Assembly: GCF_014647115.1 (NCBI RefSeq)
Contig: NZ_BMOO01000004.1
Coordinates: 310,001 to 374,000 of the forward strand
Source: Halarchaeum rubridurum
Lineage (GTDB): Archaea > Halobacteriota > Halobacteria > Halobacteriales > Halobacteriaceae
Direction: 5' to 3'
Length of the DNA: 64,000 bases
The notes under the pieces are model-generated. The model saw only the letters and a program-made list of their open reading frames with translations, was not told where the DNA came from and searched no databases. The translations under genes were made by a program, and so were the position numbers. Positions 3,015-62,675 of this stretch are shown one piece after another (within the stretch, counting starts at the first letter, position 1; each line of letters starts with the position of its first letter).

Positions 3015-3992
3015 ATGATCTTCGAGGACCTTCCGACGACGCCCACGTCGGAGGAGCTGCTCGACAAGGCGTTCTCGCGAGCGGCGCGGGCGGGCCGGGC
3101 GAAGTCGGGCGTCGAGGCCCAAGAGTCGATGTTGCAGACGGCGTCGAACGTGCTGAGCGACAACCTCGGGAACGTCGTGACGGCGTGGCCGGACTTCGAC
3201 GAGGTCGACCCGTTCTACCGCGAGCTCGCGGACGCCGTCGTCGGCGTGGACGAGGCGCGCACGCACCTCTCCGAGGTGACGTGGGCGTCGCGAAAGACGA
3301 AGTCGCTCGGTCGAGAGTACATCGGCCGACTGCCGCGCGAGGACGCTGACGCGGCGAAGAAGCTCCGCAAGCAGGCGTTCGCGCGGATGGGCTCCGTCCT
3401 CCGCGAGATCGAGGACGACCTCCAGTTCCTCAACGAGGCCCGCGACGACCTCAAGACGTTCCCGGACATCCGGCCGGACGAACCCGCCATCGTCGTCGCC
3501 GGCTACCCGAACGTCGGGAAGTCCTCGTTCGTGAACGCGGTGACGAGCGCGCGCAACGAGACCGCACGATACCCCTTCACGACGAAGGGCGTCCGCGTCG
3601 GGCACATCGCTCGCGACCACATCCGCTATCAGCTCGTCGACACGCCGGGCCTGCTCGACCGGCCGGCGGACGAGCGCAACGACATCGAGGAGCAGGCCGT
3701 CTCAGCGCTGACGCACCTCGCGGACGCCGTGCTCTTCGTCGTGGACGCCTCCGCGACCTGCGGCTACCCCCTGGACGACCAGCTCGCCCTCCAGTCGGAC
3801 GTCCGCGCGACGTTCGTCGAGGGGACGGAGAGCGACATCGGCTTCCTCACCGTCTGCAACAAGAGCGACCTCTCGACGGACGTCGAGGCGGACGCCTACA
3901 TGAGCGTCGAGACCGGAGAAGGCGTCGACGACGTCCTCACCGCGGCCATCGACGCGACGGGCTACGAGCCCGAACTGCCGACGCGGGACTAA
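3015..3992 (+). CDS. NOG1-family GTP-binding protein
   Basis: 325 residues. An N-terminal helical NOG1 domain (about residues 1-155) precedes a TrmE/Era-like GTPase domain with G1 GYPNVGKSS (about 163), a G3 DTPG (about 210) and G4 NKSD (about 282). Members act in large-subunit ribosome biogenesis in eukaryotes and are conserved in archaea. The archaeal form lacks the long eukaryotic C-terminal extension, in keeping with the length here. A TTTTTA box at 2986-2991 is 24-29 nt before the ATG, which indicates leaderless transcription and fixes the start. Confidence 0.92.
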   Translation: MIFEDLPTTPTSEELLDKAFSRAARAGRAKSGVEAQESMLQTASNVLSDNLGNVVTAWPDFDEVDPFYRELADAVVGVDEARTHLSEVTWASRKTKSLGREYIGRLPREDADAAKKLRKQAFARMGSVLREIEDDLQFLNEARDDLKTFPDIRPDEPAIVVAGYPNVGKSSFVNAVTSARNETARYPFTTKGVRVGHIARDHIRYQLVDTPGLLDRPADERNDIEEQAVSALTHLADAVLFVVDASATCGYPLDDQLALQSDVRATFVEGTESDIGFLTVCNKSDLSTDVEADAYMSVETGEGVDDVLTAAIDATGYEPELPTRD

Positions 3993-41298: not shown

Positions 41299-41718
41299 AT
41301 GTCCGGATCGCTGCCGGTACGAGATATGTCGGAAGAGGTCGTGAGTATCCCCGCGAGCGCGTCGCTCGACCAGGCTGCGGAGACGATGGCCGCCCACGAC
41401 GTCGGTTTCCTCGTCGTCACCGAGGACGGCGAGGCGACGGGCGCGCTGACGGACCGGGCGCTCGCGCTCTCGCTGAGCGAGCAGGTCATCCCGGAGTCGA
41501 CGACGGTGTCGGAGCTGGCGACCGACGACCTCGTGACCATCGACCGGGACATGGACGTCCTCCGGGTCCTCGAGAAGATGAAGCTCGACGAGGTCCGACG
41601 GGTCGTGACCGTCGACGACGACGGCGAGCCGACGAGCGTCGTCTCGCTCGACGACGTGCTCGTCCTCCTCGGCGAGGAACTCGGCGACGTGGCGGACCTG
41701 CTCGAAGCGCAGGTCTGA
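41299..41718 (+). CDS. two-CBS-domain protein
   Basis: 139 residues, a tandem CBS (Bateman) module: first CBS about residues 7-60 (VRDMSEEVVSIPASASLDQA...GFLVVTEDGEATG), second about 70-130 (VSELATDDLVTIDRDMDVLR...RRVVTVDDDGEPTSVV). Such free-standing modules bind adenosyl nucleotides or NAD and act as sensors. TTTACC at 41269-41274 is 25-30 nt before the ATG. The 3' end of the gene, including its stop codon, is the start of a 109-bp tandem duplication. Confidence 0.9.
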   Translation: MSGSLPVRDMSEEVVSIPASASLDQAAETMAAHDVGFLVVTEDGEATGALTDRALALSLSEQVIPESTTVSELATDDLVTIDRDMDVLRVLEKMKLDEVRRVVTVDDDGEPTSVVSLDDVLVLLGEELGDVADLLEAQV

Positions 41719-41937
41719 GCGGGGGCGAGGAGATGGGCGACGTCCGCGAATCGGCGTTCGATTCGCGGGCCAGTCGGACGCCGGTGCGTCCGACGCTGTC
41801 GCGGACCTGCTCGAAGCGCAGGTCTGAGCGGGGGCGAGGAGATGGGCGACGTCCGCGAATCGGCGTTCGATTCGCGGGCCAGTCGGGCGCCGGTGCGTTC
41901 GACGCTGTCGCGGACCTGCTCGAAGCGCAGGTCTGAG
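41692..41937 (+). repeat. 109-bp tandem duplication from the end of the CBS gene
   Basis: Two full copies (41692-41800, 41801-41909) and a 28-bp partial third (41910-41937). The unit starts in the last codons of the CBS gene (GCGGACCTGCTCGAAGC) and continues into non-coding DNA. Copies 1 and 2 differ at only two bases, both in one 9-bp stem (GTCGGACGC-CGGT-GCGTCCGAC in copy 1), and both changes keep RNA pairing through G-U wobbles. A second hairpin, GCGAATCG-GCGTT-CGATTCGC, is in each copy. The period is not a multiple of three. Only the first copy encodes the true C-terminus. Confidence 0.92.
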
Positions 41938-42000
41938 CCTCGGTGGTGTGTCGATGCGGGAAGTTCGGGCTTTTTCTCGCGGCCGCGCGACGACGCGGGT

Positions 42001-43107
42001 ATGGACGAACGCGTACGGGAGCACGCACGGACCCTCGTCGACTGGAGCGCGCGTATCGAGGCGGGCGACGACGTCGTCGTTCGCGTCGGGCCGGACGCCC
42101 ACGACCTCGCGGTGGCGGTCGCGGAGGAACTCGGGAAGCGCGGTGCGAACGTCGTGACGACGTACGCCTCGGGGGAGGTAACGCGCGCGTACCTCCGCGC
42201 GCACGAGGGCGACTTCGAGGCGGACCCCGAGTACGAGCGCGCGCTCTTGGCGGCGGCGGACGCGGTGTTGACGCTCGGCGGCGGGCGGAACACGGCGGCG
42301 ACGGCGGACGTCCCGGGGGAGCGCCGGCAGGCGTACGACCGGGCGCGACGGGAAATCCGGACGGCGCGCCTCGACACGAAGTGGGTGTTGACGGAGCACC
42401 CGACGCGCTCGCTCGCCCAGCAGGCCGGGATGAGCTACGAGGCCTACCAGGAATTCGTCTACGGCGCTATCAACCGCGATTGGGAGGCCCAAGCGGAGAA
42501 ACAGGCGAAGGTGAAAGAGGTCCTCGACGACGCGAGCGAGGTGCGACTCGTCTCCGGGGACGACACCGACCTGACGATGTCCGTCGAGGGTCGCGTCGCG
42601 GTGAACTCCGCGGCGAGCGTGGACTACGACTCGCACAACCTCCCCTCGGGCGAGGTGTTCACCGCGCCGCACGCGACCGAGGGCGAGGTGCGCTTCGACG
42701 TCCCGATGACCATCAACGGGAAGCGCGTCCGCGACGTCGACCTCCGCTTCGAGGACGGGGCGGTCGTCGACTACGACGCCGCGCAGGGCGAAGAGGCGAT
42801 TGCGGAGGTCGTGGAGACGGACGACGGTGCGCGACGCCTCGGCGAACTCGGCATCGGGATGAACCGCGGCATCGACCGCGTGACGGACAACATCCTCTTC
42901 GACGAGAAGATGGGTGACACCGTCCACCTCGCGCTCGGCCGCGCCTACTCGTCGAACTTCCCCGAGGGCCGCGAGGGCGAGGCGAACGAGTCGGCCGTCC
43001 ACGTCGACCTCATCACCGACGTGAGCGAGGACTCGCGCATCGTGGTCGACGGCGAGACGATGCAGGCGGACGGACGGTTCTGGTTCGAGGACGGGTTCGG
43101 GGAGTGA
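42001..43107 (+). CDS. aminopeptidase, M29 (AmpS/PepS) family
   Basis: 368 residues of the thermophilic aminopeptidase family. Typical segments are LPSGEVFTAPH (metal-ligand Glu, active-site region, about residue 217), ELGIGMNRGID with the ligand Glu in LGELG, MGDTVHLALGRAYSSN and the final HVDLITDV (His-x-Asp ligands near 340). A binuclear metal site is expected. The start ATG 42001 begins the conserved N-terminal helix (MDERVREHARTLVDW); an in-frame reading back to 41842 runs through the 109-bp repeat and is rejected. Confidence 0.9.
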   Translation: MDERVREHARTLVDWSARIEAGDDVVVRVGPDAHDLAVAVAEELGKRGANVVTTYASGEVTRAYLRAHEGDFEADPEYERALLAAADAVLTLGGGRNTAATADVPGERRQAYDRARREIRTARLDTKWVLTEHPTRSLAQQAGMSYEAYQEFVYGAINRDWEAQAEKQAKVKEVLDDASEVRLVSGDDTDLTMSVEGRVAVNSAASVDYDSHNLPSGEVFTAPHATEGEVRFDVPMTINGKRVRDVDLRFEDGAVVDYDAAQGEEAIAEVVETDDGARRLGELGIGMNRGIDRVTDNILFDEKMGDTVHLALGRAYSSNFPEGREGEANESAVHVDLITDVSEDSRIVVDGETMQADGRFWFEDGFGE

Positions 43108-43295: not shown

Positions 43296-43642
43296 AAAGT
43301 CGAGGTGAGCTGCGGGGAGTAAGCCCCCTTCTGTTCGACCCGGCATTCGGCTGAGCGTCCGCGCGGCACGTCGGGCTACCTTCCTGTGCGCGGACTTGCA
43401 CCGGCGAGGGTGGCCGTTCCATCGCTCCTCCGTCGTCGTCCCTCGGTGGGTTGACTCCCCACGGCCTTCGTCGCCGCGGGTTCGCACACCGCATCGGTCG
43501 GACGGAGACGTGTCGTCTCTGTTCCAGTGCCGACGGTCTCCCGCCCCGGGCGTGTGCCCGGTCGCCTGCCCGACTGGTGGGGGGACTTTCCTCATGCACG
43601 CGGGGTGCGCGCACGGGGGCCGGGCTCCCGCTACTCGACCGT
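43296..43642 (-). ncRNA. rnpB: RNase P RNA
   Basis: Read on the minus strand, it shows the conserved CR-I core GAGGAAAGTCC (43585-43596 region, continuing CCCC) and CR-V ACAGAAGGGGGCTTA (43320-43334 region), plus GGAACAGAGACGA (about 43519) and GGTGCAAGTCCG. P4 pairs AAGTCCCCC with GGGGGCTT. P2 pairs GCGGGAG with CTCCCCGC, and P1 pairs GTCGAG (43634-43639) with CTCGAC (43299-43304), which sets the ends to within a few bases. It is type A-like. A TTAA element in CCCCTTAACCCC (43662-43665) lies about 25 bp before the 5' end. A stem-loop and T-run follow the 3' end. Confidence 0.93.
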
Positions 43643-62528: not shown

Positions 62529-62537
62529 ATGCGCGCG

Positions 62538-62588
62538 GTGCGGCGGCGGTCGCGGTGCGGCGGCGGTCGCGGTGCGGCGGCGGTCGCG
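62538..62588 (+). repeat. 17-bp tandem repeat, three perfect copies
   Basis: GTGCGGCGGCGGTCGCG repeated at 62538, 62555 and 62572. It is followed by a triloop hairpin GGGCGGC-TCC-GCCGCCC at 62613-62629. Confidence 0.92.
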
Positions 62589-62675
62589 GCGACCGCACCC
62601 CGCGATGCGTTCGGGCGGCTCCGCCGCCCGCCTGCGTCCAGCGGGCCTGGTGGATCACTAAGGGCGAGCGAGGGC

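Follow-up and report, generated by a model that had tools for sequence, protein, structure and literature searches.

The repeat behind a CBS-domain gene of Halarchaeum rubridurum raises the question of how a 109-bp unit came to stand there in tandem, and why the only two differences between its copies leave RNA pairing intact. A preliminary description of this locus, which lies in a 64,000-nt stretch of contig NZ_BMOO01000004.1 (hereafter the window), offered either a neutral recent duplication or a functional RNA as the answer, and both readings miss a dispersed insertion element inside the unit. We consider it probable, at roughly three chances in four, that the unit combines a small palindromic insertion element of a dispersed haloarchaeal family with a duplication of the CBS gene end and an unequal exchange.

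Layout of the array

The CBS-domain gene (41299-41718, plus strand, as are all features of the array; Pfam PF00571, E 1.2e-19) is intact, encodes 139 aa and ends in a TGA stop codon at 41716-41718. The repeat starts with its last eight codons, and the tandem duplication from the 3′ end of the gene into the intergenic space stands as first described: two full copies with a period of 109 (41692-41800 and 41801-41909) are followed by a partial third copy that holds the gene-end piece only (29 nt, 41910-41938). With a score of 480, this array is the top entry among the 31 rows given by Tandem Repeats Finder for the window. Elsewhere in the window, a 17-bp tandem repeat (CGCGGTGCGGCGGCGGT, 62534-62589) occurs in 3.3 copies with a 100% match.

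Each unit is composed of 15 nt of CBS sequence from upstream of an insertion point, a 56-nt block and about 30 nt from downstream, including the stop codon. The copied upstream sequence (41727-41741) reads GAGGAGATGGGCGAC, like GAGGAACTCGGCGAC in the intact gene; the empty site in the intact gene is GGCGAC/GTGGCGGACC and the filled copy GGCGAC/56 nt/GTCGCGGACC. From this order of gene end, element and gene end, two direct copies of the 28-29-nt CBS gene end result. The block, present at 41742-41797 and again at 41851-41906, runs from hairpin A through the linker GCCA and hairpin B to three further bases. In copy 1, hairpin A spans 41744-41768 (stem 41744-41752/41760-41768) and hairpin B 41773-41794 (stem 41773-41781/41786-41794). 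The units differ at 41778/41887 (A/G) and 41790/41899 (C/T) only, and the earlier observation that both changes fall in one 9-bp stem, that of hairpin B, turning A-U into G-U and G-C into G-U, is correct. Two stable hairpins had been assigned to each copy; A and B are indeed there, but the unit holds three, the third being hairpin C (41695-41715, 7-bp stem), the CBS gene's own end, which recurs at +109 and +218.

Hairpins placed directly 3′ of a stop codon could be taken for a pair of transcription terminators of the CBS gene, as had been suggested. However, no T run follows the stems, and a scan for intrinsic terminators (hairpin plus T run) found none in 41500-42200. The T-rich run CTTTTTCTC at 41970-41978, in front of the M29 aminopeptidase gene that lies downstream of the array (42001-43107, plus strand; Pfam PF02073), is the likelier termination site; it is present with or without the repeat, being kept in a relative that has none (G003, see below). 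A terminator pair is thus very improbable. Scanning the locus with a promoter search that does not cover archaeal promoters returned nothing. The window also contains an archaeal RNase P RNA gene at 43308-43635 on the minus strand (Rfam RF00373, 155.6 bits).

The CBS locus in related genomes

The availability of four genomes from the same genus allowed the copy number, for which a comparison of strains had been advised, to be compared among sister species: there are two units in the window's genome (G000; 2.81 Mb, 25 contigs), one in G001, one in G002 and none in G003, where the CBS end passes directly to the T-rich run, with the M29 aminopeptidase gene next. Halarchaeum nitratireducens (L033), the closest named relative found, has the arrangement of G002, with a single CBS unit. 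At the two variable stem positions G001 and G002 agree with copy 1, which makes copy 2 of G000 the derived one, with 41887 and 41899 as its derived bases. A recent duplication therefore accounts for the second round, but not for the unit as a whole. The CBS elements measure 56, 55 and 56 nt, none of them a multiple of three.

We envisage that one element copy entered the CBS 3′ end in an ancestor common to three of the four Halarchaeum genomes compared, and that the gene was spared by having an intact 3′ end in front, with the tail that bears the element remaining beyond the stop codon. The two 28-29-nt gene-end copies on either side of the element would later have allowed an unequal exchange in the window's species. 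Such an exchange would double the unit and account precisely for both the period of 109 bp and the third, partial copy.

A dispersed family of two-hairpin elements

Searching G000 at the DNA level placed the block a second time, in frame within the PolX gene. The outcome of a pattern search, that the block occurs in G000 at CBS and PolX only, was wrong, as the stems vary in sequence while their pairing persists, and covariance models were chosen for this reason. The first model (R1, six copies) scored the two CBS elements at 89.6 bits (on 41738-41801) and 84.2 bits (on 41847-41910), the second (R2, 28 copies) at 81.4 and 75.2 bits on the same intervals. Run on 26 genomes of the family, R1 added 19 rows at E ≤ 1e-4, among them G001:C149, which has the look of a chance hit. 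With R2, 187 of the order's 243 sampled genomes have one match or more at E ≤ 1e-4, and this is a minimum since 22 candidates were scored per genome; with 150 candidates scored, the rows at E ≤ 1e-3 numbered 19 in G000, 27 in G124 and 47 in G132, including a few places read on both strands. Matches were present in 16/147 genomes of a phylum-wide sample, 15 in the same order and one outside it, weak (33.5 bits). Outside the order about 1/122 genomes thus matches, weakly, the split into 25 genomes inside and 122 outside being taken from the listing order of the 147. A 63-nt consensus matched 36/72,556 plasmid records, and the 30 among the matches listed were all haloarchaeal, as recognised from organism names; a typed consensus of the element had no match in a phage collection. 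The element is a dispersed palindromic repeat, a single family found at many places, between genes as well as inside them.

Comparing 100 loci with R2 gave 125 matches at 109 distinct places, which represent the highest-scoring hits rather than a random draw. Chance matches in GC-rich genes were excluded by eye (L155, L160, L162, L164, L166-L173, L176, L177). Left out of the count as well are loci that are likely real, several of which repeat places already counted (L157, L161, L163, L165, L174, L175, L203, L205, L207, L208, L210, L213, L216, L219, L221, L222, L225, L228, L230-L250, L286-L290). The element is 51-60 nt long at the ten sites measured and consists of hairpin A, hairpin B, a short linker between them that usually ends in CA, and about three more bases after hairpin B. 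Two clear hairpins are present in 106 copies. When their stems are extended to full length, what remains as linker is exactly CA in 82 of these copies; in 77, hairpin B is followed exactly by GACG (the complement of which reads CGTC), and the stem of hairpin A starts with GTT or GTC in 85. The two hairpins differ in sequence, and their stems are 7-13 bp long in the 13 copies that lie in frame within genes.

Pairing and the RNA reading

In the 28-copy alignment, 95.9% of cells are paired, compared with 74.2% in shuffles and at most 45.2% with slid partners; the figure of 95.9% is biased upward by the fitting of this alignment to the structure. Two-sided changes occur in all 17 pairs. The idea of a constraint on pairing, previously drawn from the window's two differences alone, finds its support across the family and not in those two bases. 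For two random changes to fall in one stem with pairing kept, enumeration gives a chance of 0.36% for any substitution and of 2.0% for transitions only. Pairing is kept only in the plus-strand transcript, while the minus strand acquires A/C mismatches. The plus strand folds better than shuffles (z -4.4 and -3.3), and the minus-strand fold weakens from z -4.5 to -2.0. The outcome is suggestive and weighs slightly in favour of plus-strand pairing, a matter that two bases cannot settle.

Taken together with the covariation in the family, the better-than-shuffled plus-strand folds and the fact that copy 2 keeps its fold on the plus strand and loses it on the minus strand speak for a functional structured plus-strand RNA under selection for pairing, be it a 3′UTR element, a processing site or a small RNA. 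Correction of DNA palindromes and quasi-palindromes also yields covariation, however, and covariation need not mean RNA function as it can arise in this way at the DNA level. The small RNA of the preliminary description has no counterpart among known RNA families, with no relevant Rfam family at gathering or relaxed thresholds (best 23 bits against a cut-off of 58). Furthermore, a single RNA role is hard to square with copies that lie in frame within coding sequence or interrupt the gene for RNase P RNA, and the G003 orthologue does without the element. We regard a functional RNA as quite unlikely.

Insertions inside genes

Coding sequence was called with a codon model for which 22 ORFs of the window served as training set, with a threshold of 0.38 (the 5th percentile of genic 240-nt stretches) applied to the 180-nt flanks of each place. 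By this strict cut, 13/109 places lie in frame within coding sequence and 0 were classed as frameshifts, while coding sequence was called only upstream at 9 places, only downstream at 6 and on neither side at 81. The in-frame count is too low, given that it misses the copy in LigA (0.36 on one side) and leaves the CBS tails uncalled. All 11 canonical in-frame copies are multiples of three; the 70 canonical copies outside frames include 30 of 55 nt and 22 of 57 nt, and 35 of the 70 have a length divisible by three.

Insertions with empty counterparts in relatives are found in unrelated protein genes, namely PolX, LigA and a TnpB-like frame. The PolX of G000 has 17 extra codons that are absent from G001, G002 and G003 (22 sequences read, 25 loci scanned), that of G008, from another genus, has 18 at the same point with both stems changed yet paired, and that of G220, from another family, has a third insert at the same codon, so that three genera are involved. 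About ten codons further along, the PolX of G017 and G023 (L086, L095) has another in-frame insert, unlike the first and with two hairpins as judged by eye, so that insertions seem to favour this linker of PolX as a hot spot. The LigA insert of G023, RKSEAPSSQSESTDSDDV, belongs to the helix-hairpin-helix region and is absent in the 16 relatives read at this site (24 loci fetched, 17 matching the search motif). G171 has an insert in a class I tRNA synthetase gene, ValS-like by eye, and in G195 (L193) an element at 1501-1562 lies inside the archaeal RNase P RNA gene (1269-1681), in a part of it that is poorly aligned to the family model. Histidine-kinase-like genes of G000 (L154 1380-1620, L159 1460-1560) carry tandem 45-bp two-hairpin versions at an SVEHGST segment, which we take to be the kinase N-box. 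One hairpin of these kinase arrays seems, by eye, to be built from the host codons themselves.

These findings bear on the simplest account of the array, in which replication slippage at strong hairpins produced a neutral tandem duplication and the block is a chance pair of hairpins. Hairpins promote replication slippage, and units differing at 2/109 bases offer too few differences to show selection. A chance pair would not be expected to recur in unrelated genes and genera with a conserved linker and conserved ends, however, nor to sit in frame in PolX, LigA and the ValS-like gene. The family contradicts slippage as a full account, to which we give little chance; for the second doubling step it may still apply.

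Duplicated gene ends and insertion sites

The CBS locus is not alone in having a duplicated gene end, a recurrence that could not be seen from this locus. Flanking direct repeats with a score of at least 25 accompany 12/109 places, compared with 1/176 random positions in the same loci; the 12 are redundant (four rows for CBS, two for Amt, two for the membrane protein) and include the tandem kinase array as well as L209, whose repeat is not contiguous with its element. The duplicated ends belong to the CBS gene (in three genomes), a gene for an SDR dehydrogenase (G000), one for an Amt-PII fusion (G001), one for a membrane protein without a Pfam match (G003 and G001) and, at the 5′ end, SurE (G023, named by eye). 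The gene for isocitrate dehydrogenase in G000 is arranged likewise, but its repeat is shorter and falls under the score cut of 25.

For the SDR and membrane-protein genes, an intact end stands beside the filled copy and the ends of the element are exact (GAG/57 nt/GAC and GGC/57 nt/GCC). There is no target duplication at the three clear pairs of filled and empty sites, that is SDR, the membrane protein and L305 against L306. Other sites have GAC on both sides, which could reflect a target preference or a short duplication; GAC is host sequence at the SDR site, and the GACG/CGTC tag may be a target preference. Flanking GACGT had been considered as a target duplication, an idea we dropped as neither the SDR nor the membrane-protein site shows a duplication.

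The inserts in the spare copies measure 57 nt (SDR), 57 and 54 nt (membrane protein), 60 nt (isocitrate dehydrogenase) and 165 nt (Amt), the last covering three tandem elements with an empty site that is unmatched at the DNA level. All are multiples of three, and in-frame inserts near gene ends occur elsewhere (L291). This is what one would expect if the element-bearing tail were a relic of an older allele with an in-frame insertion, displaced when an intact tail was brought in by recombination from a relative or from another genome copy of the polyploid cell. For CBS and SurE, however, the insert length is not divisible by three, and four of six genes is no excess because half of the other canonical copies (35/70) are multiples of three too; a rule that spare copies are always in frame is thus unsupported. 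We think gene-tail displacement unlikely. Read-through of the stop codon into the element-bearing tail was also considered and set aside, the tail being out of frame in SDR and CBS by eye.

In our preferred reading, a palindromic element inserted in a gene would persist if it leaves the frame open or has an intact end of the gene next to it. Haloarchaea are polyploid, and polyploidy would let interrupted and intact gene copies recombine.

Transposons and mobility

Both ends of IS200/IS605 transposons have hairpins and these transposons insert without target duplication, two features that the element shares. Y1 transposase (PF01797) had matches in 10/12 genomes tried and none in G002 and G008, both of which carry the element. 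Strong copies were present in 3/30 loci around Y1 transposases (96 kb), with about one expected from the densities in three genomes, and two of the three lie at most 140 nt from the transposase match. Unlike transposon ends, the copies near the transposases are insertions in the two cases that could be compared, since related transposons have no copy: the one in L305 (G000, 1411-1475) reads GGGGTG/element/AAGCCC against GGGGTGAAGCCC in L306, and is absent in L300, L312 and L306, and the one in L291 (G124, 3113-3171), in frame at a TnpB-like end, is absent in the related transposon L294. Y1 transposon ends as the source of the element are unsupported on these grounds, in two of three loci (the third is L302). 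In the scan of 30 transposase loci, terminal hairpins shared with an autonomous Y1-transposase element did not appear in those two of the three loci with a strong copy. The element also lacks the terminal inverted repeats plus target duplication of MITEs, hairpins A and B being different in sequence and the three clear sites showing no duplication. No mobilising enzyme was identified with Y1 transposase as the candidate in 12 genomes, and we saw no two strains set apart by a single fresh insertion.

We infer that the element moves as a unit. Most likely, it would be a mobile palindrome spreading via single-stranded hairpin DNA, which is the closest fit. A broader proposal seems possible to us, at somewhat less than even odds: these 51-60-nt two-hairpin elements may be mobile throughout the haloarchaeal lineage, an archaeal counterpart of the Rickettsia palindromic elements (RPEs), using a single-stranded hairpin intermediate and inserting without target duplication, often next to GRC, with entry at gene ends coupled to duplication of the end, which would spare the gene and seed tandem arrays.

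Relation to known elements

By analogy, the element would work like the RPEs or like the haloarchaeal SMR and PATE elements. In-frame palindromic elements are best known from Rickettsia, and the accounts available to us describe the RPEs as short palindromic repeats, many of them in frame in unrelated protein genes (PMC10969869, PMC3733652). Our element is likewise palindromic and in frame in unrelated genes. It differs from the RPEs, given there as about 150 bp, in its 51-60 nt with two unlike hairpins, a comparison made by description only, and also in its haloarchaeal hosts and the recurrent gene-end duplications at its sites.

CGTC-tagged REPs, in the portion of the source available, have short stems of 8-9 bp beginning with AT, loops of 4-5 and a CCA tail, lie in some cases in genes, have no known dedicated transposase and are reported from five bacterial phyla (PMC3733652). 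The GACG after hairpin B, of which GAC is host sequence at the SDR site, and the CA at the linker end recall them, the latter their CCA tail. Our element, in contrast, is a two-hairpin unit with a shared linker that does not have their stem, loop and tail, its stem starting with GTT or GTC and not with AT.

The SMRs and PATEs of Haloquadratum walsbyi are closer in host. According to the part of their description available to us, they have no transposase and make no target duplication; SMR-A, about 110 bp with inverted terminal repeats, inserts in near-terminal palindromes of PATEs and IS605-type transposons, and PATEs are longer, with one core-deleted form of 52 bp (PMC3119063). Our element, too, is haloarchaeal and without target duplication at the three clear sites. 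Two copies near the ends of IS605-type transposons (L291, L305) recall SMR-A, and Halorubrum-like copies lie, by eye, near the tip of a larger palindromic repeat. It is set apart from SMR-A, by description, in its length of 51-60 nt and its unlike hairpins A and B, and in-frame insertion and gene-end duplication are absent from that part of the SMR/PATE description (PMC3119063). We recognised no description of the two-hairpin element in the open-access literature, a scope that leaves subscription papers and supplements outside, and none of this family in the available parts of the three accounts (PMC10969869, PMC3733652, PMC3119063).

With the family present in most sampled genomes of the haloarchaeal order, many insertions are at hand in tractable, polyploid hosts, in genes that include those for DNA polymerase X, DNA ligase, a tRNA synthetase and RNase P RNA. 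This makes it possible to test movement without an obvious transposase, the tolerance of proteins to inserts and gene-end duplication as a route of survival. The family further accounts for tandem repeats found where haloarchaeal genes end, which one could otherwise mistake for assembly errors or small RNAs.

The larger palindromic repeat mentioned above was seen in L231-L240 and L243 (G124, G116, G214, G029), with element copies near its tip. It is about 250 bp long, running from GGGACTCAAAGGGGCAG to GGCTGGGGCTTTGG, and its outer stems, by eye, vary in sequence and stay complementary.
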